Shown in pieces: positions 17,497-36,660 of a DNA stretch of 40,206 nt. The position numbers and the translations under genes are program-made. The stretch is taken from positions 1 to 40,206 of IMG/VR virus record IMGVR_UViG_3300028372_000211. One strand, given 5' to 3'. This DNA is from a virus. The notes under the pieces were generated by a model. It was not told where the DNA came from. It was given only the letters and a program-made list of their open reading frames with translations, and made no database searches. Position 1 is the first letter of the stretch, and every line of letters starts with the position of its first letter.

Positions 17497-18088
17497 CTCT
17501 AAATCCAATTATCATAAATCTTGTGTACTTTTGAGTTTCTAACTCGTCACTGTAGACTATCTTCAGTCCTGACTGTTTTTCGAATTCTTTCAAATCTTTT
17601 GCGCAACGAACATGTTCGCCACAGTCGAAGAAGTCATTGCTCTGTAATACTATAAGTGCACCGCGCGGTGTTAACGTTAGCCATCGTTCGTATTCTTCTT
17701 GTGTCAAATGTTCGCAGATTGTATTGATAACAAGGTTAGCGTTATACCGTTCTATCAATGAATCACATGTGACTGCTTCAAACTTTCCTTGTATGTGTTG
17801 CCGCATATTTACTGTGCGGGCTATTTCCTCGCACTCAGGATCTATGTCAAACGATTTAATACGCTTGATGTCTATTTCACTATTAAATAGCAGGCTAGCT
17901 AATACCCCGTTCCATCCTCCGTGTATAACAATATCAGCAGGCGGCCATAGCATCTTTTCGAGATGTTCTACTAACCAGACCTTAGATCTTACTTGTCCCT
18001 TCCAAAAACTTTCAAGAGTCCTATATCGGTCCTCTGAGTTCCTGATCGCGTCCATCCAGAACAATACGTCTGCTATTTCTACTTTCAT
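17489..18088 (-). CDS. SAM-dependent methyltransferase-like protein (class I)
   Basis: The protein has 199 residues. DIVIHGGWNGVLASLLF (about 52-68) is motif I, IKSFDIDPECEEIA (about 76-90) is the acidic motif II with an Asp for SAM, and ANLVINTICEHLT is motif IV. Motif I reads GGWNG rather than GxGxG. ATG at 18088 has AAGG 6 bases upstream, which supports it even though the gene then overlaps the upstream radical SAM gene by 68 bases. It lies between two radical SAM genes in the minus operon. Likely a methyl or aminocarboxypropyl transfer; acceptor unknown. Confidence 0.7.
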   Translation of the reverse strand: MKVEIADVLFWMDAIRNSEDRYRTLESFWKGQVRSKVWLVEHLEKMLWPPADIVIHGGWNGVLASLLFNSEIDIKRIKSFDIDPECEEIARTVNMRQHIQGKFEAVTCDSLIERYNANLVINTICEHLTQEEYERWLTLTPRGALIVLQSNDFFDCGEHVRCAKDLKEFEKQSGLKIVYSDELETQKYTRFMIIGFRDV

Positions 18089-19070
18089 TCTTTACCTTGG
18101 GTATTTTTGAATCTGCTGAACTTACACACGTCGGTGTTATACAAGGCTGTGCACTAGGAAACAGCGTAAAGCCGTTGTCAATAGTTCCTAGTGGTTGATC
18201 GTGACAGCTATACGAACGCTTGACTTCGCCGCCGGGCTCTCTGATTATACAGCTCTGGTATCCTGCGTTACAATCCCAACCCTGGAACTTGTTAAACCCA
18301 AATGCGTTAAACCGCTCTGCTTGGTCAATGTAATATTTATTGCCCTGGCTGTCTTCTAGTCTAACTTGCGGCAGAGCCTCGCCTTCGTATTTTTGTGGAA
18401 ATCCAATTTGAAGTAACTCTCGCTGGGACTCTGAGTAGCCCGACACAACAAAACTTGCTGTAGGGTCGCTCTGAGGCTTTAACGTGACGTTTATGCCTCT
18501 ATCTGCAAAACGTTTGCACCTCGAGTAGTATTCGTCAAATAAATCCGGAACCATTACCTGATTAATTGTGACGTACACACCTGCTCGCTGTAGCTGCAAA
18601 CACTTGTCACCAAACTCTTGCTCGTTGGCAAACTCTCCGTGAAAGCTGGCTGTGATACTGCGCCTGTCTAACGTATCAGTAACGGCCAGCCATTTCTTCC
18701 ACCATTTGCTGCCCGGCGACATGTTTGTAGTCATGTGAATACTTTGATAACCCGGATTGTTATCATCTGCATAGTGTTCTACGAGTTCGCCGAAGTGTTT
18801 GTATGCTGTGGGCTCGCCGCCTGAGAAAGAGAAGTGAAAATCTGTAAAACCGTTGGCTCTTGCTTGACTTTTGATTTCGTCTATAGTTTGTTTGTAGACT
18901 TCTAAAGGACGGTGATCCGGAATGCTTGTACGAGCATAAGGCCAGCAGTAGGAACAAGCATAATTACAGAATCGGGCTAATATCCACGACACTGTAAAAA
19001 GGTTTGTATCTAATAGTGTTTGCTGACCTAAGCTCGTAATATCCTCAAATGGAATGTCTTGATAGCTCAT
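18021..19070 (-). CDS. Radical SAM protein with C-terminal GWxC-type Cys region
   Basis: The protein has 349 residues. The core CNYACSYC is at C35, C39 and C42, FSFSGGEPTAYKH is the SAM-binding segment, and ITASFHGEF follows. The C-terminus has GWDCNAGYQSC, SYSCHDQPLG and PCITPTCVSS, like the proteins at 7956-8843 and 8836-9894. Its last 22 codons (Arg-rich, ending GRDQELRGPI) are read in another frame as the N-terminus of the methyltransferase, so that tail is doubly coded. ATG at 19070 overlaps the upstream stop as ATGA. Substrate unknown. Confidence 0.85.
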   Translation of the reverse strand: MSYQDIPFEDITSLGQQTLLDTNLFTVSWILARFCNYACSYCWPYARTSIPDHRPLEVYKQTIDEIKSQARANGFTDFHFSFSGGEPTAYKHFGELVEHYADDNNPGYQSIHMTTNMSPGSKWWKKWLAVTDTLDRRSITASFHGEFANEQEFGDKCLQLQRAGVYVTINQVMVPDLFDEYYSRCKRFADRGINVTLKPQSDPTASFVVSGYSESQRELLQIGFPQKYEGEALPQVRLEDSQGNKYYIDQAERFNAFGFNKFQGWDCNAGYQSCIIREPGGEVKRSYSCHDQPLGTIDNGFTLFPSAQPCITPTCVSSADSKIPKVKNESRNSRRIVLDGRDQELRGPI

Positions 19071-20695
19071 TCGCTAGTTTTGTTCTCCTCTAAAAATCTT
19101 TCGTACAGCCACTCGAAGTCGTTTATCTTGCCCAACTGAACGCTAGACTCAATAGAAAGCCCAAATTCACGACCGTGTATAGCGCCTCGTCTTGCATAGG
19201 ACCCTTGACTCGAACGGCGTTCATCGGAGTTACACCATTTGTCAAGCCTTTCTTTTGTTTCGTCATCTATCTGTCCTCGTATTACGCTGCTTGCTAGTTT
19301 GGCACACTCTCTAAAAGCACTGCGCCATGTTGAAAACGGGTCTGTATCGAACGCGGTTACATTTGACACCTCCGGTACTGCTTTAAACTTGTAACTTATG
19401 CTGGTTGTCATGTCTGTTGAATTAATATCAACATTCTTTGTCAGCTCTGTGGGTAATAGTTTAACACCTCCGTAGCCGTAAGTCAAGTCATTTACAGGAT
19501 TTTTGCTGCGCCATACGTGTACACAGTCTTTATCCCAATGAGCTACTTGGTAATCAAAATTGAAATCTTTTTCAATCTCGGCGTCGCCGTCTACTACCCA
19601 GAACATATCAGTATCGACAATCCCTGCTGCTTTGATATGGGCATTGTGTATGCCTTTAACGTTGTGTACACGTTTTGTTCGAGGAAACCTTTCTAACAAC
19701 GCATGGTAATTCTTTTCTGCGTTTGGTTCCTTATAGCTTATGAACACAATATCATACGGCTTCGGCATGCTTGCACAGTAGTCAACTTCTTTTCTGTTTA
19801 TTACAAAACGAAATTCAACTTCTCGGCGGGTTATTGGTGCATGCTTGCTAGCAAGTACTATACCGTCGAAGTACTTGCCGTTCTTAAATGCATGATTTTG
19901 TTTTCTGTCGTAACTATTGTGATGCGAAAAATACCAGTTAAAGTCGAAGTCATCGTTAACTTTAATTCCCGGCCAGATTATCCAGAACATATCCGTCTTG
20001 GACTTCTCAAGTGCACGTTTATAGTCGTCATACCCGTCAGCATAAAAAATATCATAGGGCTTTGGCATACTTGCTTGAATGTCGATTTCTTTCTTGTTTC
20101 TATAAAATCTATAATCAATTTCGTTCTTAGAAAGTTTGGACTGTTTGGTACAAAGTACTACACCGTCGTAATAATTTCCGTTCTTGAATACAAGATGAAA
20201 CTGTTCGTCCCATTTAGCAACTCTATATGAGAAGTCAAAATCACTTACAACTTCGACATCACTAGGTACCATCCAAAACATACTAGTCGAACTGTTTTCA
20301 TACGCTTCGCAGTAATCCTCGTACGAGTCTACGGTAAAGATCTCATAGGGTTTTGGTATACTTGCTTGAATGTCGATTTCTTTCTTGTTTCTATAAAAAC
20401 GGTACTCGAACTCTTTCTTAGAAATGTTGGCACGTTTGTTGCACAGAATAATTCCGTCATAGTACTCACCGTTCTTAAATACGTGAGTATACTCTTTACT
20501 CCATTCGTCAGGCTCAAAAGAAAAATCAAAATCATCACACACAATGACGTCAGGAGTCACTACCCAAAACATTTTTGTAAAAGTCATCTTTTGTGCTTTT
20601 TCAAGCGAGCTGGCTTTTTTAGCTGTTGGAAATCTTGATTTAAGAATTCTCCACTCGCTGCTATCTTCGCCTATGTAGATAATATCGTAAATCAT
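19067..20695 (-). CDS. Multi-repeat glycosyltransferase-like protein
   Basis: The protein has 542 residues. Four tandem units begin with MFW at residues 42, 139, 236 and 364. The first three are 97 residues apart and each carries a DFDFxxxxxxW, a FKNGxYYDGxxL and an RNKKEIDIQASMPKPYxI segment. The fourth unit continues into a region homologous to the protein at 26622-27524 (KEPNAEKNY, RVHNVKG, then VVDGDAEI as a DxD-like metal site). It is therefore a glycosyltransferase-A-like domain with expanded, non-catalytic-looking repeats; those three units lack DxD. The DNA of units 1 and 2 shares an exact 41-bp stretch. TAA of the dehydrogenase gene touches its ATG. Acceptor unknown. Confidence 0.6.
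   Translation of the reverse strand: MIYDIIYIGEDSSEWRILKSRFPTAKKASSLEKAQKMTFTKMFWVVTPDVIVCDDFDFSFEPDEWSKEYTHVFKNGEYYDGIILCNKRANISKKEFEYRFYRNKKEIDIQASIPKPYEIFTVDSYEDYCEAYENSSTSMFWMVPSDVEVVSDFDFSYRVAKWDEQFHLVFKNGNYYDGVVLCTKQSKLSKNEIDYRFYRNKKEIDIQASMPKPYDIFYADGYDDYKRALEKSKTDMFWIIWPGIKVNDDFDFNWYFSHHNSYDRKQNHAFKNGKYFDGIVLASKHAPITRREVEFRFVINRKEVDYCASMPKPYDIVFISYKEPNAEKNYHALLERFPRTKRVHNVKGIHNAHIKAAGIVDTDMFWVVDGDAEIEKDFNFDYQVAHWDKDCVHVWRSKNPVNDLTYGYGGVKLLPTELTKNVDINSTDMTTSISYKFKAVPEVSNVTAFDTDPFSTWRSAFRECAKLASSVIRGQIDDETKERLDKWCNSDERRSSQGSYARRGAIHGREFGLSIESSVQLGKINDFEWLYERFLEENKTSE
20067..20107. repeat. 41-bp direct repeat, copy 1
   Basis: This is an exact 41-base match to 20358-20398, offset 291 bases (97 codons). 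It lies inside unit 2 of the multi-repeat glycosyltransferase-like gene and encodes part of the RNKKEIDIQAS segment. Perfect identity at DNA level points to a recent duplication or gene conversion between units. Confidence 0.85.
20358..20398. repeat. 41-bp direct repeat, copy 2
   Basis: The second exact copy of the 41-base repeat, inside unit 1 of the same gene. The third unit has only a diverged version near 19765. Confidence 0.85.
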
Positions 20696-21913
20696 TTACC
20701 TCGTGTTTCCATAATGTATAACTGTGCTTACGCTAGAAGACATCTTACGCCATGGGTCTATTATAACACTGAAAGGCGGGATCGAGCAATACAATTCGTC
20801 TCTAGCTGTCATGCCTGTGTATTCGTATGTAACCTCTGCAGAGTGTGCCATTAAAAATACCCCCGGAGCAGTTGGTTGGAAGTCATCGCCGGTGTACGGA
20901 TCAATGTATGTGGGCGAATGTCCTGCTTGCTCACAATAGTGCCCTACTAGCAAACTGTAACTACCGTCTAGATAAGGAACTCTTGGCTTGTATGCTTTGC
21001 CGTGAATATAGATCGGCATGTTATTGAGCGCTGCATGCTTGACTAGTTCTTCTGCTAGATTTTTTGCTTGTACTTCTCTGGCTGTCATCACCGAGGAAAA
21101 CAAGTCATACCCTAAATCTAACTTTTCAGCAAGATAACTTAAGGCAATATTATCGCGGGGATGGCAGCCACCACCGTCACCCATGCCTGCTGTCATATAC
21201 TGTGGGCTCATAATACGCATACTAGAATTCGCAAGTGCTTGAGTTACTACGTCTACATCGATGTTGCCTTGTTTTACTGCAACATCTTGTATCATATTAA
21301 CAAGACCAATCTTTGTAGAGATAAAGGTATTGTAAAACACTTTGATACATTCACATTCGTCCCAGGTACCAACAACGTAGCGAGGATCGTTGTCCATTAC
21401 AGTCTTATAAAAATCGACCAGCTGTTTTGCGTCACCTGTTTCCTCGCCGTCTTCTGTACCAATCATAATCATCTCTGGATTCACCATGTCCCAACTTACA
21501 CTGCCCATGGCAATAAGGTAAGGATTATACACAAAACGAGTATTACCTACTAAGTCAACAAATTGGTCTCGCGTAGTACCAGGAAGCACAGTTGATACAA
21601 GCACAAGAAGCTGATCTTTATTCATGTACTTGTTAGCTTCTTCCAAGACTTCCTTGACAATTGTATAGCTAAAGTCTTTAGGTGGTAGATGGCTCGAAGG
21701 TGCATTACCGTCGTACTCGAGATCATGCGGGGTAGGCACTGCTACAAATACTACATCCTTGCCTACAACACATTCGCCTATAGTGTCTACGACATCTACA
21801 GTATCACTACAGACCTTAGCAATATCATATCCTGTAACCGAATGCCCTTTTGCTGCAATTGCTTCTGCACAGGGCATGCCGAGCTTGCCCACACCAATAA
21901 AGCCTATGTCCAT
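20696..21913 (-). CDS. UDP-glucose/GDP-mannose dehydrogenase-like protein
   Basis: The protein has 405 residues, close to the usual length. The N-terminal Rossmann motif GFIGVGKLGMP (4-14) binds NAD; VAVPTP (58-62), LVLVSTVLPGTT and ExxKVFYNT (K191, N195) are family motifs. GDGGGCHPRDNIAL has the catalytic Cys250. The usual PEFLxEG segment is NPYLIAMGS here, so both Glu residues normally found there are missing. The enzyme family makes UDP-glucuronate-type sugars from UDP-hexoses in two NAD-dependent steps; the changes could alter the second step or the substrate. ATG at 21913 has AGGAG upstream, and AATAAGTA lies at 21939-21946. First gene of the minus operon, followed by the glycosyltransferase-like gene. 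Confidence 0.8.
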   Translation of the reverse strand: MDIGFIGVGKLGMPCAEAIAAKGHSVTGYDIAKVCSDTVDVVDTIGECVVGKDVVFVAVPTPHDLEYDGNAPSSHLPPKDFSYTIVKEVLEEANKYMNKDQLLVLVSTVLPGTTRDQFVDLVGNTRFVYNPYLIAMGSVSWDMVNPEMIMIGTEDGEETGDAKQLVDFYKTVMDNDPRYVVGTWDECECIKVFYNTFISTKIGLVNMIQDVAVKQGNIDVDVVTQALANSSMRIMSPQYMTAGMGDGGGCHPRDNIALSYLAEKLDLGYDLFSSVMTAREVQAKNLAEELVKHAALNNMPIYIHGKAYKPRVPYLDGSYSLLVGHYCEQAGHSPTYIDPYTGDDFQPTAPGVFLMAHSAEVTYEYTGMTARDELYCSIPPFSVIIDPWRKMSSSVSTVIHYGNTR

Positions 21914-21991: not shown

Positions 21992-22627
21992 ATGTTTAAC
22001 AAGGTCGAAGAGTTTGAGAAAGAAATCGCAAAATTTTACGGGGCGCCGTATGCTGTTGCTACCGATTGCTGCACTCACGCAATCGAACTATCGTTGCGAT
22101 ATCTCGACACTAGATTTGTTTTTATCCCAAAACACACTTATATTTCAATCCCATTTACTGCTGAGAAACTAGGAATATATTGGCAGTGGAACGAACGACC
22201 TTGGCAAGATTACTACTATCTCAACAGCAAAATAATCGACGCTGCTGTATACTGGAGAAGAAACGGCTATGTGCCAAGTTCTTTTATGTGTTTGAGTTTT
22301 CAATTCAAAAAGCACTTATCTCTTGGTCGAGGTGGAGCAATTCTATGTGAAAACCTAGAAGATTACGTCGAACTAAAGAAAATGAGTTATGATGGGAGAT
22401 TGCCAGATATTCCGTGGGCCAATCAAGACATAAAATCTATTGGATATCATTACTATATGACTCCAGAAACTGCACAACAAGGAATCGATCGATTGCCTTC
22501 TGCGATAGCAAGCCCGTCGAAGCAATGGAGTTGGCAAGACTACCCAGACTTATCAACTAATAGTATTTTTAAAATAGGAAACAAATGCCATCTAAAAACG
22601 AGTGGAGCCAACTTAAAAAAGTTGTAG
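21992..22627 (+). CDS. Half-length DegT/DnrJ/EryC1-like PLP aminotransferase
   Basis: The protein has 211 residues against about 370-400 for the family. The kept half includes VATDCCTHAIELSLRYL (the usual PLP-phosphate-binding region), PKHTYISIPFTAEKLG, IIDAAVYW with the Asp that pairs with the PLP nitrogen (D83), and SFQFKKHLSLGRGGAILCE with the Schiff-base Lys (K106 or K107). The C-terminal domain is nearly absent; the last 14 codons overlap the next gene in another frame. It could work as a dimer of large-domain-only subunits or be a truncated remnant. ATG 21992 has no Shine-Dalgarno and lies 4 bases after AATAAATA. The family aminates keto-sugars; its neighbour is an amidinotransferase. 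Confidence 0.7.
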   Translation: MFNKVEEFEKEIAKFYGAPYAVATDCCTHAIELSLRYLDTRFVFIPKHTYISIPFTAEKLGIYWQWNERPWQDYYYLNSKIIDAAVYWRRNGYVPSSFMCLSFQFKKHLSLGRGGAILCENLEDYVELKKMSYDGRLPDIPWANQDIKSIGYHYYMTPETAQQGIDRLPSAIASPSKQWSWQDYPDLSTNSIFKIGNKCHLKTSGANLKKL

Positions 22628-23550
22628 TAGGCGTTGCGGATTACGCTAAAATCCCAACAATAGACAAGAGTATGCGCACCGTAAACTATGCTGATGTCAC
22701 AGACCTTGATTCAGTACCTGTGGGGAACTATCCCCAGCAAGTCATTGACGAAGCTAACGAGGACTTGGATACATTTGTCAGCTTCCTAGAGAAAGAAAGT
22801 GTTAAGGTAGTTCGGCCTGAGCGAACAGATTGCAACTATTACAACTATTGTCCAAGAGACAGTGTATTCATACACGGCGATAAGACTATCGCAACTCCCA
22901 TGCCGTTGCGTGCTAGGATAAACGAATACAAAGCATTTGAACAGCATCTGCAAAATGTCGAGAACCTTAACCAGCCACACTGGGACGCGCTCTATAACAC
23001 AGAGTGCATAGGCAACCCTGACATCTTGGCCCTTAATGAAACTGCTCCAGCATTTGATGCTGCTAACGTAATACGAGCAAACGACGATGTTTTATACCTT
23101 GTGTCAAACAGCGGAAACCGGCAAGGAGCTCTGCTGTTAGAAACTATGTTAGACAATGTAAATGTACACGAACTTGAAGGCATATACAGCTATATGCACA
23201 TCGACTCAACTATTGCTTTTTTACGCGAAGGGCTGATGTTGCTCAACCCAAGTAGAATTAAAAGTAAATCTCAACTCCCAAAGCCTTTTAGACATTGGGA
23301 TGCTATATGGTGTCCTGAACCAACTGACATAGGTTATTATCCAGGATATTGTAACGCTAGCGAATGGATCAATATGAACTTGTTTAGTGTGTCGCCGAGC
23401 CTTGTAGTGCTAGAAGAAAATCAACACTCGCTTAGAAAAGAGCTGGAAAAACATGGCATAGAATGTGCTATGTTGCCTATGCGTCATCAACGTACCCTAG
23501 GCGGCGGATTTCATTGTGTAACCTTGGACTTAGATAGACATGTGGATTAA
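22585..23550 (+). CDS. Amidinotransferase (AGAT/StrB-like)
   Basis: The protein has 321 residues, close to the 345-420 of the family. CPRDSVF (89-95), FDAANVIR (D158), MHIDSTIAFLREG (H205, D207) and LGGGFHCVTLDLDR (Cys311) match the Asp/His/Cys catalytic set of glycine amidinotransferase and inosamine-phosphate amidinotransferase. These enzymes move an amidino group from arginine onto an amine, forming a guanidino group. ATG at 22585 has AGGAA upstream and lies 43 bases inside the PLP gene, so the two are coupled. A PLP-dependent amination followed by amidino transfer is the logic used in streptomycin-type guanidino-sugar synthesis; application here is inference. Glycine is an alternative acceptor. 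Confidence 0.85.
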   Translation: MPSKNEWSQLKKVVVGVADYAKIPTIDKSMRTVNYADVTDLDSVPVGNYPQQVIDEANEDLDTFVSFLEKESVKVVRPERTDCNYYNYCPRDSVFIHGDKTIATPMPLRARINEYKAFEQHLQNVENLNQPHWDALYNTECIGNPDILALNETAPAFDAANVIRANDDVLYLVSNSGNRQGALLLETMLDNVNVHELEGIYSYMHIDSTIAFLREGLMLLNPSRIKSKSQLPKPFRHWDAIWCPEPTDIGYYPGYCNASEWINMNLFSVSPSLVVLEENQHSLRKELEKHGIECAMLPMRHQRTLGGGFHCVTLDLDRHVD

Positions 23551-24034
23551 AGGAAGTGTAAAACCGCGTTGGAACAACCGCTATAAAGAGTTTGAGTACG
23601 TCAGACAACCGCTTACTGACAAGGAACTAATATATTGGAAAGACCAAGGTTATAATCATCAAAACTTTACAGGCATGATGTATGACAGTACTAATCCGAT
23701 GCCTGTTTGGGTGAGAGCCGTTGCTGCTGAAATCGGACTTAACAAATGCGGATATGTGTTTTACAAAATGGTAACCGGCGATATAATGCCTATGCATGTT
23801 GACCACTATCGTCGTTATTGCCAAGTCTTTGATGTTGAGTATAAAGACGTTTGGAGAGCTATTGTTTTCTTAGAAGATTGGCAAAGTGGACACTACTTTG
23901 AAATTAACAGGCATGCATTTTGTAACTATAAAGCAGGTGATTACATTCTTTGGCAAAGTGACACACCTCACGCTGCTTCGAACATAGGAGTGGACGATAG
24001 ATACACTTTACAAATAACAGGAGTTTTAGATTGA
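23540..24034 (+). CDS. Small HxD...H...R (2OG-Fe(II) oxygenase-like) protein
   Basis: The protein has 164 residues. TGDIMPMHVDHYRRYC gives H86 and D88, DYILWQSDTPHAASNIG gives H144, and DDRYTLQITG gives R154. The full HxD...H...R set is present in a minimal jelly-roll. The strand WRAIVFLEDW before the turn is typical. ATG at 23540 overlaps the amidinotransferase by 11 bases. It may hydroxylate the product of the two upstream enzymes, but this is inferred from position only. Confidence 0.65.
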   Translation: MWIKGSVKPRWNNRYKEFEYVRQPLTDKELIYWKDQGYNHQNFTGMMYDSTNPMPVWVRAVAAEIGLNKCGYVFYKMVTGDIMPMHVDHYRRYCQVFDVEYKDVWRAIVFLEDWQSGHYFEINRHAFCNYKAGDYILWQSDTPHAASNIGVDDRYTLQITGVLD

Positions 24035-25230
24035 TTGTACGTATTGAAATAATGCACAAGGATAAGATATATGTACAAGCCGGTTATACTAGCTATACTC
24101 GTCTTCATCCTATACACAAAAGGTCTAAGAGTAGTTCTGCCTCATACCACACAGTAACAAATAAGATTGAAAGAACAGACGGCACTGCTATCGTTACGTT
24201 ATATTCTGGATGTACTAAAACTAACATAAAAGACATAATTAGGTTTATAAAAGTTAACCGAATAAAAAACGTTTACTTCTTTATCGAAGATGTTTTTAGA
24301 TTATATTCAAAGAAACATCAATTTGCATATTTAGAAACCTACGTTTTAGATTACGATCAGAAAAGCGTTAGGTCACTCGAACTGGATATGATCTCTACGA
24401 TAATAAGCAAAACTAAATGCAACTACAAAATATATCATTGCGAACAAAACGCAGACATAGTGGGAGAAAATTACAACTTAGAAATAAACTATTTTGATTG
24501 GTTTTTTCTAGATTGTATTGACATCAAGAATTCAGGAAAGCAACGTAAATATATAGAATCGAAAATTCCTATTAAACATAAAATATCGTGCTTTAATCTA
24601 CGACGAGACTGGCACCGTACTATTATTATGTCCTTGATAAAAGACTTTGACGGCACTTTTAGTCTAAATGATTCATATACAACAAAAGAGTTGATAACGA
24701 ACCCGGCTATACCACTAAAGAATTTTGGGCGGCCTATAAGCAAACGTATTGTTAAAGGAAATAAATCCTTGCTCGAATCACCCATATTATGGGATGCTGC
24801 GCCAGACAAGAATGGCAAAATAACAGCACCGACCCACAAGAATCAGTTAGATAATACAGGGGCTATTGCCGCATCATTTGTTAACGTTGTGACAGAAACC
24901 AGATTTGCATCTAGCATGCCGAACGTGTCAGAAAAAACCCTGAAACCAATTTTAGTTAAACGACCTTTTATTATGGTTGGCCCAGTAGGAACACTAGCTC
25001 ATTTGCGCGAACTAGGGTTTAAGACATTTAGCAAGTGGTGGGACGAAGGGTATGACAGCATAACTGATCACAGCAAACGCTTAGAAATGATCTATAAAAT
25101 AATAGAATCTATTAACGATATGCCATTGGATGATCTCAACACACTGCTAGAAGATATGAACAGTGTGTTAGAACACAACTTTAACAATATGTTAAAGCTC
25201 GGGGAACAAATGGGGAAGAACTTAGATTAA
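24031..25230 (+). CDS. Protein with a marine-phage glycosyltransferase-like C-terminal domain
   Basis: The protein has 399 residues. The C-terminal part (about 287-399) reads FVNVVTETRFASS then EKTLKPILVKRPFIMVGPVG, LRELGFKTF and WWDEGYDSITD. I associate this pattern with putative phage and marine bacterial glycosyltransferases, in which ExxxxKxxxxI..RPF binds the sugar donor. The N-terminal 280 residues are Lys-rich and lack motifs I recognise. The start is TTG at 24031 because AGGAG lies 7 bases upstream and the codon overlaps the previous stop as TTGA; ATG at 24052 is the alternative. Its end overlaps the convergent radical SAM gene by 9 bases within a hairpin. Acceptor unknown. Confidence 0.5.
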   Translation: MIVRIEIMHKDKIYVQAGYTSYTRLHPIHKRSKSSSASYHTVTNKIERTDGTAIVTLYSGCTKTNIKDIIRFIKVNRIKNVYFFIEDVFRLYSKKHQFAYLETYVLDYDQKSVRSLELDMISTIISKTKCNYKIYHCEQNADIVGENYNLEINYFDWFFLDCIDIKNSGKQRKYIESKIPIKHKISCFNLRRDWHRTIIMSLIKDFDGTFSLNDSYTTKELITNPAIPLKNFGRPISKRIVKGNKSLLESPILWDAAPDKNGKITAPTHKNQLDNTGAIAASFVNVVTETRFASSMPNVSEKTLKPILVKRPFIMVGPVGTLAHLRELGFKTFSKWWDEGYDSITDHSKRLEMIYKIIESINDMPLDDLNTLLEDMNSVLEHNFNNMLKLGEQMGKNLD

Positions 25231-25238
25231 GTTCTTCC
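25214..25238. terminator. Bidirectional terminator-like hairpin at convergent stops
   Basis: There is a perfect 11-bp inverted repeat, GGAAGAACTTA at 25214-25224 and TAAGTTCTTCC at 25228-25238, with a 3-base loop GAT. It contains both convergent stop codons. No long U-tract is present. The role as a shared terminator or mRNA 3' end is inferred from position and symmetry. Confidence 0.6.
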
Positions 25239-26625
25239 ATTCTCTGTACACGCCCTCCATTTCCGGAAAAGTTCCTAAGAAATCAGTGCCACGTCGACGA
25301 TCATGCTCGTCGACAAAGATTACAAAATCTTTTCGCAGTGTTTCTAGCTCGCCTCGTGACATCTTTTCATTTGAGAATACTTCTTGCAACCTGCTAAACT
25401 TGTCGCCTTCCCATTCGTAGAATCCTTGATTACAAATACTCATATCGTGCGGCGACTCTAGGTTATTGCGAATAAACTCTAGTTGTTTAGTGATGTACTT
25501 CTCATTCCATTCCGGCGGCGCAATCTTAATAGCTTGATGATCAGGATATCTGAGATACGGCACATCTAAAATAATAGGAATAGCCTTACCTGGGCCGCCA
25601 AAGTCTTTCTTAATAGCAAGGATATCTTCTAAGAACTTGTCAAAAGATATCATGCTTAACAGATTGTAGGTACACATACAAGTAAAAGTACAGCCTGGTA
25701 CTTCTGTTAGAACGCGACGAATATTGTACAACCATTTATCGTAATCTAAGCCGTGTCTAATATACTCTGCCTGGGCACCATAAGCCTCGGCGCTTGTGAA
25801 TATCTTAAACTTCTTAACCAGATTGTTGTCGCAAATATACTTTACCTTACTAAAAAACTTTTCAAACAATTCATCCGGAATGCACATATTACTGTTGACA
25901 GAGAATTCAATATTAGGCAGTGGGTTCTCAATAATGTAATCCAATACCTTAAACGTATCTTTGGCCAGCAATGGCTCGCCGCCGGTGATTCTAAAGTGAT
26001 GCAACTTGTCAGAAATCTCAGGCCACCATTTCCAAAATGCGTCCACGTATGGATTATATTCACGCACAGGAATAGGCACTGTTCCATTCTGCTCCATTGA
26101 ATGCAAGCTGTTAAATGGCTTACTAGTTTCGTACGCGCCGTGTTGCTTTATTTCATCCATCCACTTACTGCTAACCTGCGGTCCGCAATAGCTACACTTG
26201 AAATTACATACACTGCTGAAACTAACTTCTAAGTAAGTAGGCACAACGTCATGGTCCCATGGCATTGTCTTGATTTCTTCCATGTATGGCAACGCCCATG
26301 GCTCGTAGGACTTGTACGTGCGATCGCTGACAGCATCTTCGTTGCTATCTTCTACGCGCCAACAATAGTCACATTCGCTAGGGCGCTCGCCTTGCAGCAT
26401 CTTTTTACGCTGCTCTTTTTTATACTTAGTGTTATGCAACGCGCTTGGATTGTTTTCAAGCTCTTCAACAGGAATCTTGTGTGCTGTTGGGTGATGGCAG
26501 CTATGTGTCTGGCCACTGTGAAGATGCAACGTCACCTGCTTCCACTTAGCCAAACAAAAGCCTGTCCCTACTTCGTCTAATTCTTGTGTGACTGCTATTA
26601 ATCTACTGTTTGAAAAATCGCTCAC
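25222..26625 (-). CDS. Radical SAM protein with N-terminal Cys-cluster (twitch/SPASM-like) domain
   Basis: The protein has 467 residues. The N-terminal domain has FCLAKWKQVTL (C24), THSCHHP (C43) and MLQGERPSECDYCWRVEDS (C85, C88), and the core CNFKCSYC (C140, C144, C147) follows, with ITGGEPLLAKDT later. It is the third member of the family at 6688-7959 and 10924-12336; the shared signature is RxxMLxGExPxxCxxCxxxE. Start is GTG at 26625, supported by AGGAAGG upstream and a GTGA overlap with the previous stop. Last gene of the minus operon from 30096. The other genes of this operon are glycosyltransferases and two unknown proteins, which hints at a glycan or glycosylated target. Substrate unknown. 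Confidence 0.85.
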   Translation of the reverse strand: MSDFSNSRLIAVTQELDEVGTGFCLAKWKQVTLHLHSGQTHSCHHPTAHKIPVEELENNPSALHNTKYKKEQRKKMLQGERPSECDYCWRVEDSNEDAVSDRTYKSYEPWALPYMEEIKTMPWDHDVVPTYLEVSFSSVCNFKCSYCGPQVSSKWMDEIKQHGAYETSKPFNSLHSMEQNGTVPIPVREYNPYVDAFWKWWPEISDKLHHFRITGGEPLLAKDTFKVLDYIIENPLPNIEFSVNSNMCIPDELFEKFFSKVKYICDNNLVKKFKIFTSAEAYGAQAEYIRHGLDYDKWLYNIRRVLTEVPGCTFTCMCTYNLLSMISFDKFLEDILAIKKDFGGPGKAIPIILDVPYLRYPDHQAIKIAPPEWNEKYITKQLEFIRNNLESPHDMSICNQGFYEWEGDKFSRLQEVFSNEKMSRGELETLRKDFVIFVDEHDRRRGTDFLGTFPEMEGVYREWKNLI

Positions 26626-27524
26626 TTAATCCTTCCTATAATTCTTGGTGTATTTTCGTACACTTGTTTGAAAAACTTTGATGCGTTATCGTCTAGTTCT
26701 GCAACTTCAAGATCTAATTCTTCGCGCAATGCTTGTCCTGTGTTTACTATCTTGAATTTTGCATCATCTTCTGAGAAGCTGCCGTACATTTCGTACCAAT
26801 ATTCTGTTAGATATTCGAAGTCTCTGACTTGAGTGTAATCCCAATCTGTGCAGTTTGTCATATAAACGCCTTCTCGAGCGCCTAACATACTCCAGATACC
26901 GTTCTTTACATCGGCGCCAACATTGCACCAAATAAGCAACCGGTCATAATTTTGCCACCACACGGACTTCAGCATAGATGTCTTTTCGCCTTGGTTCAAA
27001 CTCATCTTCACTCCTTCGCGGAACCCTGCTCGCCATGCCTGAAACGGTGTTTCGTTTGTGTAACTTGTACAGTAGTTCGTATTGAATTGGTAATAAAGAT
27101 CGCTGAAACAAAACTCTACAACACTACGATGATCAGTTGCGTCGGCATTTTCATGTGTCTTCATGTTGTTTACAAATTCACGAGTCCACATCTTAAGGCC
27201 ACCGTTGCCATAACGCAAGCCGTTAACATGGACGTTTCCGCACCAGCTGAAAACATGCTTGTCTGTAAGTCCTAACTCGTCTAAGTCTATCTCTATATTC
27301 AAGAAATTAGGATCAATGATGTTATCAGCATCGATTGTAACAAAATATTCTGTTTCACTTAATGCTGCACACGCTTTGTGCGCTGCATCGCTGCCTTTGA
27401 CTCCGTGAACACGCTTGGCCCATGGAATCTTGGTACAAAGGTCTGCGTAGTTCTTTTCTGCATTAGGTTCGTCATAGGACAAGAAAATGATATCTTGGTC
27501 TACAACTCTAATCTTATTGCTCAT
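26622..27524 (-). CDS. GT-A-like glycosyltransferase
   Basis: The protein has 300 residues from ATG 27524 (AGAGGA upstream). IIFLSYDEPNAEKNYADL opens the domain, RVHGVKGSDAAHKAC follows, and YFVTIDADNIID carries the DxD-like metal site (D65, D67). Further on, RYGNGGLKMWTR and FQAWRAGFREG match the C-terminal domain of the multi-repeat protein at 19067-20695, so the two are paralogs and this is the plain form without the repeats. A metal- and nucleotide-sugar-dependent transferase is likely; the acceptor is unknown. It lies between an unknown gene and a radical SAM gene. Confidence 0.7.
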   Translation of the reverse strand: MSNKIRVVDQDIIFLSYDEPNAEKNYADLCTKIPWAKRVHGVKGSDAAHKACAALSETEYFVTIDADNIIDPNFLNIEIDLDELGLTDKHVFSWCGNVHVNGLRYGNGGLKMWTREFVNNMKTHENADATDHRSVVEFCFSDLYYQFNTNYCTSYTNETPFQAWRAGFREGVKMSLNQGEKTSMLKSVWWQNYDRLLIWCNVGADVKNGIWSMLGAREGVYMTNCTDWDYTQVRDFEYLTEYWYEMYGSFSEDDAKFKIVNTGQALREELDLEVAELDDNASKFFKQVYENTPRIIGRIK

Positions 27525-28095
27525 TAAAAATCCTCTTAAACTGGTACGTGTCAAATTTGCGTGATGTAAATATGCTTATAGGCTCGTCTGAATGCTCAAA
27601 CGGCATAGTGAACGGCAGTACAACATAATTATCACGCACTACGTCAGCAAGTTCAACAAAAAGAGTTTTGTAAAGAATATTAGGATCTCCTTTAGCGGTG
27701 ACGCTTAACATCATCCTGTCGTTTACGGCAACTCCTTTCCCTCTAAGACTATCGCCAAGCACTGCACCGATGTGTACCTTCCAACAAGTGTTCACAACGT
27801 CTTGGACAATCAAAATGTCTGGAGATTTGCCGACTCCTTGTGGAACATCGTAGATAAAATTGTTTACAGAATTTCCTCTCATCTGTGTGTCGTATCGACT
27901 ACCGAACTCCATCTGCTTAATCTTGGTGTTGTACCGTACTTCAAATGCAGTAGTCGAATCTTCGCCACTAATTAGCTTTCTTACTTTGTCGAGCGGCACT
28001 GGAATCGAGTTCTCGCCCGTGTACTCTGTAGCTTTGATCCCTAGTATCGATCCTGTCTCTTTATCAAATTTTACATACATCATTTTTTCAGACAT
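27514..28095 (-). CDS. Conserved phage protein of unknown function
   Basis: The protein has 193 residues. I do not recognise a family. It is rich in beta-strand-like segments (MMYVKFDKETGSILGIK, AFEVRYNTKIKQMEFG, YVVLPFTMPFEH) and has no membrane segment or Cys pattern. This could be a small structural or DNA/RNA-binding protein, but nothing proves it. ATG at 28095 with AAGGA 9 bases upstream is preferred to TTG at 28101. It overlaps both neighbours, so it is part of the glycosyltransferase operon. Confidence 0.55.
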   Translation of the reverse strand: MSEKMMYVKFDKETGSILGIKATEYTGENSIPVPLDKVRKLISGEDSTTAFEVRYNTKIKQMEFGSRYDTQMRGNSVNNFIYDVPQGVGKSPDILIVQDVVNTCWKVHIGAVLGDSLRGKGVAVNDRMMLSVTAKGDPNILYKTLFVELADVVRDNYVVLPFTMPFEHSDEPISIFTSRKFDTYQFKRIFNEQ

Positions 28096-31141: not shown

Positions 31142-31149
31142 TATTTATA
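31142..31149 (-). promoter_or_regulatory. T4-type late promoter TATAAATA
   Basis: Exact minus-strand TATAAATA, 25 bases before ATG 31116. It overlaps the TAA stop of the upstream tail-fibre gene (GTA TAA ATA). It gives the last structural gene its own late transcript. Confidence 0.75.
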
Positions 31150-32614
31150 CTTTGAGAACGCACTCTACTAAGCCTTCCGAGTCACTGACTTTATCTTCCA
31201 ATGCAACACCTACGAGAGACAACGAAGTCATTGCAGAACCTATGCCTGCGCCGGCTACGTATATAGCCTGGCCTTTCTTAACTCGTCCGGTTACACGAAC
31301 AGGAACTCGTCCTTTAAGTGCAAGTGCTTGACCTTCGCTAGCTGAGTTCATCAAAAACGCAGGTTCTGCAGACACTACGCCAATTACAATGTCATTTAGT
31401 CCAGATGCAGTTGTTTCTTCAGCGCCGCCAACTGACATAATTGTGCCTGTTGGATATTCTTTATCTGTAGTATACTTCTCTGCCAAGTCAGCGTATTTTG
31501 CGCTAGTTGCTGTACCGTTGAACTCGCTTGCAAAGATAACATTGCCTGAAGAACGTGCAACAATAGTATCTGGCACTGCACTAACTGACGCACTTAGATA
31601 AGTGCTTGCTGAAATCTTTAGTGTATCTGCCTTTGTAGCTTGGCCGCCACTGAAATTATCAGCATAGATTGATCTAAATCGCAACGAACTTGTGCCTAGG
31701 TCAAATGTGTTTGTTGCTGCTGGCATAATACCAGCCGATGTAATAGAAACACTGTGAATACTTGCATCGTTTACGTTGTTCGCTTTAAATCTAATCTCGT
31801 TATTAGGACCACTAGTGTTACTAATAACCCCGCGCAACGGATCAGTTCCGCCTGTTTCGGCTGAAAACCCAAAGGCACCAGCTGTTAGAACGCCGTCAAC
31901 ATTAGTTGTAATCTGATTTACAAAGTCTGGGTTATCAACTGTAACAAACTCGCTAGACAATCTGTTGTTTAGCTTGTCTGCGTTAGTTGCTGTACCTTTA
32001 AAGCGATATGCTGAGGTTGTAACACCGTCAGTAGAGTCTTTTAGTGTAATACCTCTTGAAATTCTAGTAAACCCCTGCTCACTAAGTTCTTCGATACTGT
32101 TAATTTCAAATTCAGACGGCGAAAAAACAGAGATAGGAGTATTCTCAACATACGAAACAATAACAGGCCTTGCGGTATTAACAGAATCAATTACTTCGAG
32201 ACTGATCATTTGTGTAAGTCCGGAACCCGATGACTGAGGTCCAATTAGAACAAACTCCGACCCACTGTATACATACAGCTGATCATTTCCGCTGTCCCAC
32301 CAAAAATCGCCAACGCTTAACCCAACTGGCGCTGTTGCTGAAACTTCACTGCCGCCTGTTGCTCTCCAAACATCGCCGTCATAGAACTTTAGTTTGCCTT
32401 CGGCGCTGTCAAACCATACCTGGCCTTCTAGTGCTTTCGGAGGTGGATTTGCGTTTGCAAAGTTTTCTAGTAGAAACAGGAAGTTTTCGTTGTGAATCTC
32501 ACCGTAACCAGCATAATTTTTGCCAATGAACCGCAAATCGGTTGTTTGGTCGAGTGTACCGTCTTCTACTATAGTTAACAACGTCCTGTTGTATCTGTCT
32601 ATCTGATAAGCCAT
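31145..32614 (-). CDS. Tail-fibre-like protein, member 1 of three paralogs
   Basis: The protein has 489 residues. The first 125 residues form the shared module: GYGEIHNENFLFLLENFAN, LEGQVWFDSAEGKLKFYDG, WWDSGNDQLYVY and ending LIGPQ. A variable middle follows. The C-terminus has YADLAEKYTTDKEYPTGTIM and then RVPVRVTGRVKKGQAIYVAG, a pattern I associate with marine myovirus fibres. Likely a host-recognition or fibre protein. ATG 32614 has AGGGGA upstream and GATAAATA about 30 bases upstream. Confidence 0.8.
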   Translation of the reverse strand: MAYQIDRYNRTLLTIVEDGTLDQTTDLRFIGKNYAGYGEIHNENFLFLLENFANANPPPKALEGQVWFDSAEGKLKFYDGDVWRATGGSEVSATAPVGLSVGDFWWDSGNDQLYVYSGSEFVLIGPQSSGSGLTQMISLEVIDSVNTARPVIVSYVENTPISVFSPSEFEINSIEELSEQGFTRISRGITLKDSTDGVTTSAYRFKGTATNADKLNNRLSSEFVTVDNPDFVNQITTNVDGVLTAGAFGFSAETGGTDPLRGVISNTSGPNNEIRFKANNVNDASIHSVSITSAGIMPAATNTFDLGTSSLRFRSIYADNFSGGQATKADTLKISASTYLSASVSAVPDTIVARSSGNVIFASEFNGTATSAKYADLAEKYTTDKEYPTGTIMSVGGAEETTASGLNDIVIGVVSAEPAFLMNSASEGQALALKGRVPVRVTGRVKKGQAIYVAGAGIGSAMTSLSLVGVALEDKVSDSEGLVECVLKV

Positions 32615-32644
32615 GTTTGCATATCCCCTTTATGTGCTTTTTAT

Positions 32645-32652
32645 TATTTATC
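32645..32652 (-). promoter_or_regulatory. Late-promoter-like box GATAAATA
   Basis: Minus-strand GATAAATA lies 30 bases before ATG 32614, in the 57-base gap between two tail-fibre genes. It fits NATAAATA. Confidence 0.6.
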
Positions 32653-32671
32653 CGTTTTATCGTACTGAGTA

Positions 32672-34576
32672 TTATAAGATTCCAGGCACTGTAACAGGAC
32701 CTGAGACATACTGCCACGCACCGCTAACAATTTCAAATGTTCTAACTTCTCTTAGTACACTAGGGGTATACGCTACTGACAAATCAGTAGGCAAACTTAT
32801 ATCTTGTACTACTGATACTTTATCACCTGATAAGTTTATAAGTACGTCTGCAGGAGTCACGGTTGACTGTGCTTCAACATTAATACCAGTGATCTCTGTG
32901 CTAGTAATTCGTGTCGTAATTATCTTAGCCTGTTTACCGTCATTAAGAACAGCATCAGGTTCGAACACTGCATCTAAGTACTTGCGGATGTTAGTTCTTA
33001 CGTCACCTTCTGCTGTAGACCATGCTGTAATATCTATCGAAAACGCCAGCAACGAATTATCAATCTGTTCATCAACGTACACTTTATTTGCAGCATCGGT
33101 ATCCACTTCTGGTTGTACTAAATCAGTAATTTTACTGCTTGATACACTGATGTTGCCGTTGGCATTAAAAGTCAGGCCTGTCGATACTGTAACTGTCGAA
33201 CCGTCTATGAAGATGTCGTCTACTGTTAAGTCTGTTAGAGTTCCAACTGACGTTACTCCCGGCGCACTTGTAATAGTTGTTCCAAGACTGTCAACATCGA
33301 TAACCTTTGTGTTATTAATTCTATATTCTTTACCGGTTGCTAAGTCAACATTTTCACTAGAAGTCCAGCTACTAGTAGTATTAACCCAATTAAGAGTCTT
33401 GTTAGTGTTGCCTAGTAATGTTATGCCGCCTCCGTCTGCTGTTGTATCACTAGGTTGACTAGACTCGTCTGGAACAATACCTAACTCAATATTCTTGTCT
33501 GCAACACGCAAGATAGTTGATTCAATAGTAGTAATTGTGCCTTCTACCGTTAGCTCTCCTGTAATTCTGGCGTCGCCAGTTACATCTAATGTAAACTGCG
33601 GATCACGGCTGAATATACCAAGGTTGCCGGCTATCGGATCAATAGTAATAGCATCTCTTGTTGCTGTATCGCCCGGGTCGAATACTTTTAAACGAGTGTT
33701 ACGTCCTTGGTCTTGTACTTCTAATATAACATCATCGGTGTCAGGGTTGGAAGACTGAGTTTCTACAAATAGTCTTACACTGCTGTCTATTAATTGTAAT
33801 GCCGGTACTATTCCTTCTGGCGGATCTCCAAACAAAGTTAAGTCTCCGGCAACAGTGCCTCTCTGATCATTTCGAAGTACTTTGTCTGTAGAAAATTCTG
33901 TTGCAAGGTTAGTTCCTGTGATAAGGCCTTGTGCTAATGCTGCTGTGCCACGATATTGAAACTCGTAAGGATTAACAACGTTTATTCCTGGATAGATGAT
34001 TCCATCAGGGTTTCCAGTTGTTACTAACTCAGGAACTATATTTCCAAAAGTATTGCCCGGCGTAATCTGAATTCGTGATACTATCGCTTGCAATGTTTCG
34101 CCGAGCCTAATCTCTAACACTGTTCTTGGGTTAAAATTCTGATCCTGCACGGTTCGTACAAATATTCCGCTTTTGCCTTGTTGAAGTGTGAACTGAGGTC
34201 CTACAAGTTGAAAGTCTTCGCCGTCAAATAAGTATAACTGATTCGACGATGTATCGTACCATGTGTCACCTGCAATAGGATCTTGCGGCGGAAGTATGCC
34301 AACAAAACTACCTGCTGCTGGCTGAAATTCTTCACCGTTGTATATTTGCAACTTGTTTATACTAGTATCGTACCACAATTGACCTTTCAGAGGAGAAAGA
34401 GGAACGGTTGAGTTCGCAAAGTTCTCGAGCATCTTGACAAAGTTTTCGTTAATGAACTCGCCATAGCCTGTAAAATTTCGTCCTACTAATGCGATGTCAG
34501 TAGTGTCAGTGTCCAATATTCCATCTACTAACTCTACTAGAATAGTTCCATCTGTTCTATTTAAAATATAACTCAT
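32672..34576 (-). CDS. Tail-fibre-like protein, member 2 of three paralogs
   Basis: The protein has 634 residues from ATG 34576, which overlaps the upstream stop as TAATG; an in-frame ATG at 34594 is less likely. N-terminal module as in member 1: GYGEFINENFVKMLENFAN, LKGQLWYDTSINKLQIYNG, TWYDTSSNQLYLFDG and LVGPQFT. The middle has many short strands and repeats of fibre type (GDLTLFGDPPEG, GNLGIFSRDPQFTLDVTGDA) and the C-terminus differs from the other members. No enzyme motif. A long trimeric fibre is inferred. Confidence 0.8.
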   Translation of the reverse strand: MSYILNRTDGTILVELVDGILDTDTTDIALVGRNFTGYGEFINENFVKMLENFANSTVPLSPLKGQLWYDTSINKLQIYNGEEFQPAAGSFVGILPPQDPIAGDTWYDTSSNQLYLFDGEDFQLVGPQFTLQQGKSGIFVRTVQDQNFNPRTVLEIRLGETLQAIVSRIQITPGNTFGNIVPELVTTGNPDGIIYPGINVVNPYEFQYRGTAALAQGLITGTNLATEFSTDKVLRNDQRGTVAGDLTLFGDPPEGIVPALQLIDSSVRLFVETQSSNPDTDDVILEVQDQGRNTRLKVFDPGDTATRDAITIDPIAGNLGIFSRDPQFTLDVTGDARITGELTVEGTITTIESTILRVADKNIELGIVPDESSQPSDTTADGGGITLLGNTNKTLNWVNTTSSWTSSENVDLATGKEYRINNTKVIDVDSLGTTITSAPGVTSVGTLTDLTVDDIFIDGSTVTVSTGLTFNANGNISVSSSKITDLVQPEVDTDAANKVYVDEQIDNSLLAFSIDITAWSTAEGDVRTNIRKYLDAVFEPDAVLNDGKQAKIITTRITSTEITGINVEAQSTVTPADVLINLSGDKVSVVQDISLPTDLSVAYTPSVLREVRTFEIVSGAWQYVSGPVTVPGIL

Positions 34577-36660
34577 TATACGTTCCCGGTGCAAATAATA
34601 TAATTAACTGTTGTATATGGATTCATTGTATTAAGAGCAGCGCCTAAGTCTTCGCCTGCTACATCTCTATAATTGCCAGGGCCGTCTGTGCCGCCGCCTT
34701 GGATTGAACCACTTGACGGTATACCTGATACTGTGGCAGAACTTGCGCCAACTGTTTCTATATTAAGAGATTCGGCTTCTGGCGAATCGCTAAGCGAGTC
34801 AAGTGCTGCGTCTCTGATTGCATAATACTGTTTTGCATTAGTACCCGACGATACCAAGTCATGTTCGTGTGCTGGCAGATTACTCTTCGTAACGTCGGTT
34901 GTTTCACTACCTCCGACGTTACCTACAATTTCGGCCGACAACGAAGATACACGGTTAGCATTATTGCCGCCCATTGCATCGTTACCTAGCGGGAATCTTC
35001 CGCGGAAGTCAGGTAGACCGAACCATAATGAGGGACTAAGCCCTAGGTCGTCTTGAAGCGTAACTGTATCTAAAAATTGATGACCAATAATGTCAAACAA
35101 TTCAGGGTAAGTAGATCGTTCAACTGTAGACCCGTCACAAAGCAACCAGCCCGGAGGTGCAGTTGCACCACCATACGGCATCATAGCACCAGGCGGAGTA
35201 GTCGGAACACTTGCAACAAAGTCACTTTGTTTAATTCTAAACAGACTCGATCCCCTATTAACAAGAACTTCGTCGTCTGCTTCAGCAAACGAAGAAGCAG
35301 TCTTGTTAATAATAAATCCATTACTAATAGTAGTATTAAATTCTTTAGATAGGTTACCACCACCATCGAATGTAACATCAGCTTCTGTTGTTACGTCACC
35401 TGTTATACTAAAGGTAGTTACATTTAGTAATCTGCCTGCTGATTCAGCAGAGCCGTCGAATGTTCCTGTTAGGGTGCCTTGGAAATTACCAATAAACGTA
35501 CTAGCCGAAATACTATCAAATCCGTCAATTGACTGATTAGTCGGTCCGTTAGCTACTATATTTTGATTAATAAGCAAATTACCAGAAAGGTCTATATCAT
35601 CCCCGATATTTAGGTTCTTTGCTATGCTAGCACCGCCTGCTACCTGTAATGCACCCTCGTTAGGCCCGGTTGCGTTTGTGGTCAAGTCAAGTTTTACTAC
35701 GTCACTTACCTTTAAGGTACCTGTTACGTCTAGCGTTTCCTGAGGATTTAGAGTATTAACACCGATCCTAGGAGTTCCGCCCGGGTTACTGTTAAGTCTT
35801 AGTATTCTTAGGTAGTCTGCGCCTTGCTTTACTTGAAAGTCGATGCCGCCGCCATTGAAGTTGTTCCTAATAAGCGATCTCTGACCGCTGGTTAGCAAAG
35901 AAAGCTGGTTATTATCGCCAACTTCAATACCCTGATTGTTTTTAACTCTTAAAATGCCGTTAGCCGTTGTGTTTTGATCACTTCTTAGGAATCTATCAGC
36001 CGGAACATAATCGTTTTGGATTATAAGAGCTTCTGCACCTTCAGACCTACCATAATACTTTAACAGTCCGAATGGGCCGTCGGTGCTGAGGTTAAAGCCT
36101 GCATTAATTCTTGCGAAGCCAGGTATTGCTGTCTTCGGAATAAACATGTTACTTGACAAGATCACTGACGGAACTTGGTCAATGTCGATGATTAAAATTG
36201 CATAGTCTTGATTATCAGTCCCTGTAACTAGTGCAGCTCGAGGTCCTGTTGACGATCCTTGAGAAAACTGAGGACCTACTAGCACCCAGCCCGAGCCTGT
36301 GCCTAAATATAGCTGCTGGCTGCTAGTATCAACCCACAGGCCACCAGCTACTGCATCAGGAGACGAAGCAGCCTTGTATATACCGCTTGCAGGAACCCAC
36401 TCAGTGCCGTTATATATCTTTAACTGATCAATATTAGCTGTAGTATCGTACCACGTTTGTCCTTCAACCGGATTGTCCGGTGCTTCTGCGAAAGCAAAGT
36501 TTTCTAACAGATGTAACAGGTTCTCGGCAATGATGCTGCCGTATTCAGTTACGCCTTTGCCTGGGAAACTTAAACTAGTAACGTCGTCGTTAATGTCTCT
36601 ATCTTCAACAGTAATCACACCTTTATTGATATTGTCAGTGTATGAAACAAAATATGCCAT
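34576..36660 (-). CDS. Tail-fibre protein with phage tail-collar domain, member 3 of three paralogs
   Basis: The protein has 694 residues. The N-terminal module (EYGSIIAENLLHLLENFAF, VEGQTWYD, LWVDTSSQQLYLG, LVGPQFS) matches members 1 and 2. Residues 485-565 are a tail-collar domain: PPGAMMPYGGATAPPGWLLC, STYPELFDIIG and GLPDFRGRFPLGND. That domain (Pfam phage tail collar) is found in T4 gp12-like short tail fibres. The C-terminus ends in GxTDGPGNYR-like and MNPYTTVNYIICTG segments. ATG at 36660 has GGAGGT upstream and overlaps the previous stop as TAATG. Confidence 0.9.
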   Translation of the reverse strand: MAYFVSYTDNINKGVITVEDRDINDDVTSLSFPGKGVTEYGSIIAENLLHLLENFAFAEAPDNPVEGQTWYDTTANIDQLKIYNGTEWVPASGIYKAASSPDAVAGGLWVDTSSQQLYLGTGSGWVLVGPQFSQGSSTGPRAALVTGTDNQDYAILIIDIDQVPSVILSSNMFIPKTAIPGFARINAGFNLSTDGPFGLLKYYGRSEGAEALIIQNDYVPADRFLRSDQNTTANGILRVKNNQGIEVGDNNQLSLLTSGQRSLIRNNFNGGGIDFQVKQGADYLRILRLNSNPGGTPRIGVNTLNPQETLDVTGTLKVSDVVKLDLTTNATGPNEGALQVAGGASIAKNLNIGDDIDLSGNLLINQNIVANGPTNQSIDGFDSISASTFIGNFQGTLTGTFDGSAESAGRLLNVTTFSITGDVTTEADVTFDGGGNLSKEFNTTISNGFIINKTASSFAEADDEVLVNRGSSLFRIKQSDFVASVPTTPPGAMMPYGGATAPPGWLLCDGSTVERSTYPELFDIIGHQFLDTVTLQDDLGLSPSLWFGLPDFRGRFPLGNDAMGGNNANRVSSLSAEIVGNVGGSETTDVTKSNLPAHEHDLVSSGTNAKQYYAIRDAALDSLSDSPEAESLNIETVGASSATVSGIPSSGSIQGGGTDGPGNYRDVAGEDLGAALNTMNPYTTVNYIICTGNV

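Follow-up and report, generated by a model that had tools for sequence, protein, structure and literature searches.

The amidinotransferase operon of a marine phage, found in IMG/VR virus record IMGVR_UViG_3300028372_000211, probably encodes a guanidino-sugar module inside a region for the modification of surface glycans. The window analysed here is the whole 40,206-base record, which represents an incomplete genome, and the operon consists of four overlapping co-directional genes from an ATG at 21992 to position 25230 on the plus strand. They encode, in order, a putative pyridoxal phosphate (PLP)-dependent sugar aminotransferase of a trimmed DegT/DnrJ/EryC1 type (mini-DegT, 21992..22627, about 212 residues of which about 195 are conserved), a predicted StrB1-like L-arginine:amine amidinotransferase (AMT, 22585..23550, 321 residues), a small 2-oxoglutarate (2OG)-Fe(II)-type oxygenase (23540..24034, 164 residues) and a protein with a predicted GT-B glycosyltransferase (GT) fold (24031..25230, 399 residues). 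The overlaps are 43 nt (DegT/AMT), 11 nt (AMT/2OG) and 4 nt (2OG/GT-like); the open reading frame (ORF) tool gives TTG 21989 as the mini-DegT start, and the 43-nt overlap covers an unconserved, low-confidence tail of mini-DegT (residues 198-212). The first-pass annotation, made from the letters of the DNA, had described this overlapping operon and a sugar-nucleotide dehydrogenase gene divergent from it, and both are present. Our reading is based on which genes are present and stay linked, on their folds and catalytic residues, and on the surroundings of their relatives, which point to sugars and polysaccharides.

The best solved-structure match of AMT in a phmmer search was StrB1 (1bwd, residues 7-339, E 6e-64), against E 9e-27 for human arginine:glycine amidinotransferase (AGAT), and a profile of 33 AMT sequences matched StrB1, which is an inosamine-phosphate amidinotransferase, with E 2.3e-80 versus 9.1e-48 for AGAT. 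The AGAT/StrB catalytic set claimed in the first-pass annotation was borne out: all 33 phage sequences have Asp158, His205 and Cys311, which align with the residues of StrB1 and with Asp254, His303 and Cys407 of AGAT, the catalytic triad of that enzyme (PMC3684758). With this triad and with full-length similarity to solved members, AMT belongs to the AGAT/StrB1 family of pentein fold. AMT also retains the residues that align with AGAT Asp170, Asp305, Arg322 and Ser355, which we take to be the contacts for the donor arginine. The acceptor flap, which governs the choice of acceptor in AGAT, AmtA and CyrA (PMC4887976), reads Tyr-Ser-Tyr-Met in AMT, versus Pro-Asn-Pro-Met in AGAT and Tyr-Ala-Ser-Thr in StrB1. 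Because the donor-site residues are kept and the flap is unlike that of AGAT, arginine is the likely amidino donor of AMT and glycine is a doubtful acceptor. Within the amidinotransferase family, AMT groups by sequence with StrB1 and not with the glycine enzymes. An amino-cyclitol or amino-sugar would be the acceptor supported by linkage and context.

Mini-DegT matches PF01041 above the family cut-off (E 2e-13), and its alignment with 43 homologues contains 41 invariant residues, including the PLP lysine Lys108 and Asp84. Profile matches included perosamine synthase, AHBA synthase and scyllo-inosose aminotransferases. The AlphaFold2 model of mini-DegT (predicted local distance difference test, pLDDT, 91) was aligned by VIA-align to the sugar transaminase 7b0d with a Z of 19.8 (192 residues, 3.0 A), and to perosamine synthase, ArnB and other sugar aminotransferases with Z of about 18. 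The PF01041 match, the fold and the PLP lysine and aspartate place the protein in the DegT/DnrJ/EryC1/StrS family, without the complete two-domain architecture of about 370 residues: mini-DegT has about 195-212 residues, of which about 190 align to chains of 360-380 residues, and about 150-170 of the usual residues are absent in large stretches. Sequence and model together suggest that mini-DegT is a trimmed lineage of the DegT family which is likely still catalytic. A broken pseudogene was rejected as an explanation, since 41 residues do not vary in any of the 43 sequences.

Relatives of AMT occur in 323 viral contig stretches, and those of mini-DegT in at least 594. At the 57 AMT loci that are well flanked (at least 4.5 kb on either side), mini-DegT accompanies AMT at 56 and the 2OG oxygenase gene does so at 55; after clustering at 90%, the numbers are 27 and 26 of the 28 non-redundant AMT loci. 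The four-gene set is far beyond chance, since the same genes recur at about 50-70% identity in dozens of contigs. At least seven gene orders occur (DegT-AMT-2OG, DegT-x-AMT-2OG, DegT-2OG-AMT, DegT-x-2OG-AMT, DegT-2OG-radicalSAM-AMT, a divergent DegT, and 2OG-AMT-AMT-DegT), and therefore the proximity of AMT, DegT and 2OG has outlasted rearrangement. The converse fails, as AMT is absent at 38 of 57 well-flanked DegT loci. The AMT set is thus nested within the DegT set, which is expected if DegT makes the amine used by AMT. While the 2OG gene accompanies nearly all well-flanked AMT loci, it occurs at none of the 38 AMT-less DegT loci. One contig (L069:6001-8086) has two tandem amidinotransferase-like genes beside 2OG and mini-DegT, an echo of StrB1/StrB2, and, by eye, a gene for a TctA-like transporter.

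At the AMT-less loci, a gene for GDP-mannose 4,6-dehydratase (TIGR01472 E 2e-119, slightly under the curated cut-off) adjoins mini-DegT in 25 of 33 non-redundant cases, and relatives of sugar formyltransferase, hexapeptide acetyltransferase and nucleotidyltransferase are found at subsets of these loci. All 20 tallied conserved positions are identical between the AMT-type and the dehydratase-type mini-DegTs, with Thr57 to Leu, Lys107 to Gln and Tyr185 to Trp as the clear changes. The dehydratase-linked mini-DegTs form a single clade in the DegT tree (SH-aLRT 98). Free swapping of the two types was rejected on this ground, in favour of a single switch.

Sugar genes also accompany AMT itself. A gene for GDP-mannose dehydratase has a 4-nt overlap with that for AMT at two loci (L031 and L023), and in another (L057) DegT, six GT-like genes, AMT and a UDP-sugar dehydrogenase share one gene run. 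Other AMT copies are accompanied by relatives of NodU-type carbamoyltransferase (PF16861) and of the phrog_2835 glucosyltransferase, and the isolated cyanophage S-SCSM2R has the same gene set within a glycosyltransferase cluster. S-SCSM2R has in addition a second, divergent amidinotransferase-like gene (L254:25919-28932) beside genes annotated as KdsA and KdsB and a 2OG oxygenase, which suggests guanidino chemistry on Kdo-type sugars too.

Among the bacterial homologues sampled for the tree, the only one with the phage Ser-Tyr-Met flap is an AMT of 43% identity in a beta-proteobacterial metagenome-assembled genome (L076). Its gene lies among genes for Wzz, O-antigen ligase, NodZ-like and GT2 proteins, in a cluster of the O-antigen or exopolysaccharide type. 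A full-length DegT gene in this cluster shares 4 nt with an epimerase-type gene, and the radical-SAM protein of a phage cassette (L064) has a counterpart here with 41% identity over 263 residues (E 1e-80). Judged from these similarities, the L076 cluster is the strongest single pointer to an amino-sugar of surface polysaccharide. The proposal that amination and then amidino transfer would give a guanidino-sugar, which the first-pass annotation had made, is the best supported, with an AMT of the StrB1 side that almost never occurs without mini-DegT, a sister mini-DegT clade beside GDP-mannose 4,6-dehydratase, and this flap-matched bacterial homologue.

In the oxygenase, H86-x-D88...H144 is invariant and R154 nearly invariant (at least 90%) among 26 homologues, which is the motif of 2OG-Fe(II) enzymes. 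A Pfam search of the oxygenase gave nothing above cut-off, and its PDB profile match to the 2OG enzyme AtsK was weak (E 0.17). Family searches with the fourth protein of the operon gave zero matches. Its AlphaFold2 model (pLDDT 78.7) had a best Foldseek E of 1.7e-3, and in VIA-align T4 beta-glucosyltransferase came out best at a Z of 12.5, while many GT-B enzymes reached about 10-12. From this model, it is plausible that the fourth protein is glycosyltransferase-like.

The sugar chemistry, the order of steps, the sugar, the target and the benefit that we infer are as follows. A keto group would first be formed on a sugar, probably nucleotide-linked, and the carbonyl may come from the 2OG oxygenase, from a radical-SAM dehydrogenase in some phages, from a dehydratase or from the host. 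Mini-DegT would then aminate the keto-sugar using PLP, and AMT would move the amidino group from L-arginine onto the new amine, yielding ornithine and a cationic guanidino-sugar. That the 2OG gene tracks AMT and the dehydratase gene tracks AMT-less DegT suggests that the 2OG oxygenase acts in the same pathway, where it may make the keto group or tailor the product, for instance by hydroxylation; this contrast represents one evolutionary switch and is a lead, not proof. In the last step, the GT-B protein and neighbouring glycosyltransferases would put the guanidino-sugar on a glycan. The likely target would be the surface polysaccharide of the infected host, with a change of receptor or a block of superinfection as the outcome, and the second candidate would be a glycan on the phage tail fibre. 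We favour the host surface glycan because the cassette has a position of the host-recognition type (PMC7029224) and because of the bacterial L076 cluster.

Several observations weigh against a guanidino-sugar module. GDP-mannose dehydratase is absent from the window, and a clear one was not found in 16 larger records with AMT either, S-SCSM2R (complete, 244 kb) among them, which leaves the origin of the keto-sugar unexplained. Nor is there support for a GDP-mannose 4,6-dehydratase elsewhere in every AMT phage, as the PF16363 matches seen were weaker and fell on other short-chain dehydrogenases. Mini-DegT is about 45% shorter than canonical DegT proteins and may use a substrate other than a nucleotide-sugar. 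Because there is one switch in the DegT tree, the Fisher p-values for AMT/2OG versus dehydratase overstate independence. Finally, most other bacterial AMT relatives differ in both flap and gene context, and most adjoin a protein of about 1700 residues that may be an adenylate-forming enzyme. Since the bacterial homologues lie mostly in other contexts, StrB1-like ancestry by itself is no proof of a sugar acceptor.

Those bacterial clusters with the 1700-residue protein also speak for a free guanidino small molecule (a modified amino acid, an aminocyclitol or a peptide-like metabolite) as the product instead of a glycan building block. DegT would then give the amine and AMT the guanidine, and the 2OG and radical-SAM enzymes would tailor the product; sets of 2OG, radical-SAM and carbamoyltransferase genes do look like secondary-metabolite logic, and a published cyanophage cluster that combines 2OG enzymes with carbamoyltransferases has been proposed to yield either a decoration or a metabolite (PMC7824862). 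However, genes for glycosyltransferases and for nucleotide-sugar dehydrogenase or dehydratase recur with the cassette, and the flap-matched cellular homologue lies in a polysaccharide cluster. We therefore consider a small-molecule product unlikely. The first-pass annotation had left the decoration as a guanidino-sugar or a guanidino-amino-acid; the sugar is the better supported of the two, and the amino acid is less likely.

We assign a low probability to a route in which the glycan is edited as a finished polymer. The 2OG oxygenase would oxidise a carbon of the finished glycan or of a glycosylated tail fibre, the open-sited mini-DegT would aminate it, and AMT would guanidinylate the amine. 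If true, this would make the set a three-enzyme 'C-H to guanidine' editor of macromolecules that includes one of the smallest fold-type-I PLP aminotransferases.

It is improbable that the guanidino-sugar is placed on phage DNA as a hypermodified base that shields it from restriction. The top fold match of the GT-B model is T4 beta-glucosyltransferase, with other GT-B enzymes nearly equal and with the glycosyltransferase of phage HY126 and T4 alpha-glucosyltransferase slightly lower (Z in the 11-12.5 range), and some large relatives are T4-like in that they encode T4-type gp23. However, thymidylate synthase/dCMP-hydroxymethylase (PF00303) was found in none of the 16 AMT-bearing records, including S-SCSM2R, so that the hydroxymethylcytosine anchor of the T4 type was not found, and the cassette is placed among tail-fibre genes.

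There is also little probability that AMT is an ordinary arginine:glycine or amino-acid amidinotransferase for the arginine, ornithine or creatine-type metabolism of the host with the neighbours as passengers: although the Campylobacter phage copies are annotated 'glycine amidinotransferase' and creatine biosynthesis (GAMT) has been called an auxiliary metabolic gene of ocean viruses (PMC11360552), GAMT is a different enzyme from AMT, we identified no partner methyltransferase in the operon, the flap is unlike that of AGAT, StrB1 is the closer relative, and the linkage with DegT (56/57) and 2OG (55/57) is left unexplained.

Guanidino-sugar chemistry is best known from streptomycin. In that route, as proposed for the phage, amination by a DegT-family enzyme (the scyllo-inosose aminotransferase StsC) is followed by transfer of the arginine amidino group by StrB1, whose triad AMT shares. 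Unlike StsC, with 370-440 residues, the phage DegT has about 200; the phage cassette links a 2OG oxygenase and glycosyltransferases, and the AMT flap differs from that of StrB1. The kinase and phosphatase of the streptomycin route were not identified in the operon, where the kinase was not searched for by name. The mini-DegT fold is also that of GDP-perosamine synthase, part of the known route to perosamine and its N-acyl or N-formyl derivatives in O-antigens, and the sister clade resembles this system in its link to GDP-mannose 4,6-dehydratase, which relatives of formyl- or acetyltransferases join at some loci. In contrast, the AMT-type cassettes mostly have no nearby dehydratase and have an amidinotransferase and a 2OG gene instead.

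Islands for lipopolysaccharide (LPS) modification in cyanophages and pelagimyophages (PMC7824862, PMC7029224) likewise combine glycosyltransferases, nucleotide-sugar enzymes, 2OG, radical-SAM and carbamoyltransferase genes, often among tail-fibre genes like the cassette in the window, and pelagimyophages have a glycosyltransferase-rich host-recognition cluster (PMC7029224). In the passages of these papers that were searched, we found no mention of an amidinotransferase or DegT, whereas the three-gene guanidinylation set recurs here across hundreds of contigs. An amidinotransferase beside radical-SAM genes has already been noted in Campylobacter phages (PMC2853527): the interchangeable module of CP220 and CPt10 has an AMT relative of 25-26% identity, whose neighbours are several radical-SAM genes and predicted nucleotide-diphospho-sugar transferases. 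This AMT is distant, with several pocket positions changed, and a mini-DegT was not found in these phages. In the literature searched, there was no report of the AMT/mini-DegT/2OG set, of a phage guanidino-sugar or of a link between a phage amidinotransferase and glycans. LPS-modifying phage islands are already published, and the proposed guanidino-sugar chemistry would be a new addition to phage glycan-modification modules rather than a new kind of module.

Around the operon, the divergent gene on the minus strand (20696..21913) encodes a UDP-sugar dehydrogenase-like protein (TIGR03026 E 1.1e-42; phrog_9148 E 2.8e-93; motif GGGCHPRD), relatives of which lie close to AMT in about 26 loci. In two sequences 99.8-99.9% identical to the window, L003 (2807-5329) and L001, this gene is broken at the catalytic Cys by an apparent split intein. 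Its N-half matches PF14890 below cut-off (E 9e-5), its C-half ends in HN ahead of Cys-HPRD, and a separate ORF of 269 residues between the halves is weakly similar to phage endonuclease I. The layout resembles the 'fractured gene' arrangement of split inteins. In the window (empty site about 21152-21164) and in L002, the dehydrogenase gene is uninterrupted.

Next to it on the same strand, a 542-residue protein (19067..20695) is built of repeated modules that are GT-A-like at best, with a weak, below-cut-off match to PF08437, and has homologues at 32 of 72 AMT loci. It contains at least three near-repeat modules (TDMFW...DFDFSY...HVFKNG.YYDG...RFYRNKKEIDIQAS.PKPYDI) with internal DNA copies about 80% identical, and its terminal module resembles a 310-residue neighbour (26622-27554, minus strand). 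A radical-SAM protein (18021..19070, minus strand; PF04055 E 6e-13) is a possible partner, with homologues in 34 loci and 66-70% conservation in many AMT loci, and a radical-SAM-like protein flanks the cassette on the other side (25222..26625, minus strand; PF04055 E 2.9e-6, slightly under cut-off), with homologues in 30 AMT loci. The surroundings are rich in radical-SAM and probable 2OG genes, and proteins of the tail-fibre type are encoded shortly downstream (31145-36660). Between 930 and 15356, the window is densely packed with probable small oxygenases (HxD...H patterns are visible by eye in several), short ORFs and four genes of radical-SAM-like type, and so large a set of enzymes is unusual next to tail-fibre genes. 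An Rfam search of the window gave zero matches, and the T4-type late promoter TATAAATA occurs at four sites in the window, which is not above chance.

Taken together, this small and recurring set of genes predicts a single class of product, a cationic guanidino-sugar, in a field where phage glycan chemistry is mostly guessed from generic glycosyltransferases. Two of its enzymes are tractable, the StrB1-type amidinotransferase and the sugar aminotransferase, which is pared down to about 195 residues, and the L076 cluster predicts guanidino-sugars in bacterial surface polysaccharide too. Receptor binding and superinfection exclusion would plausibly be altered if LPS, capsule or tail fibre carried a positive charge.

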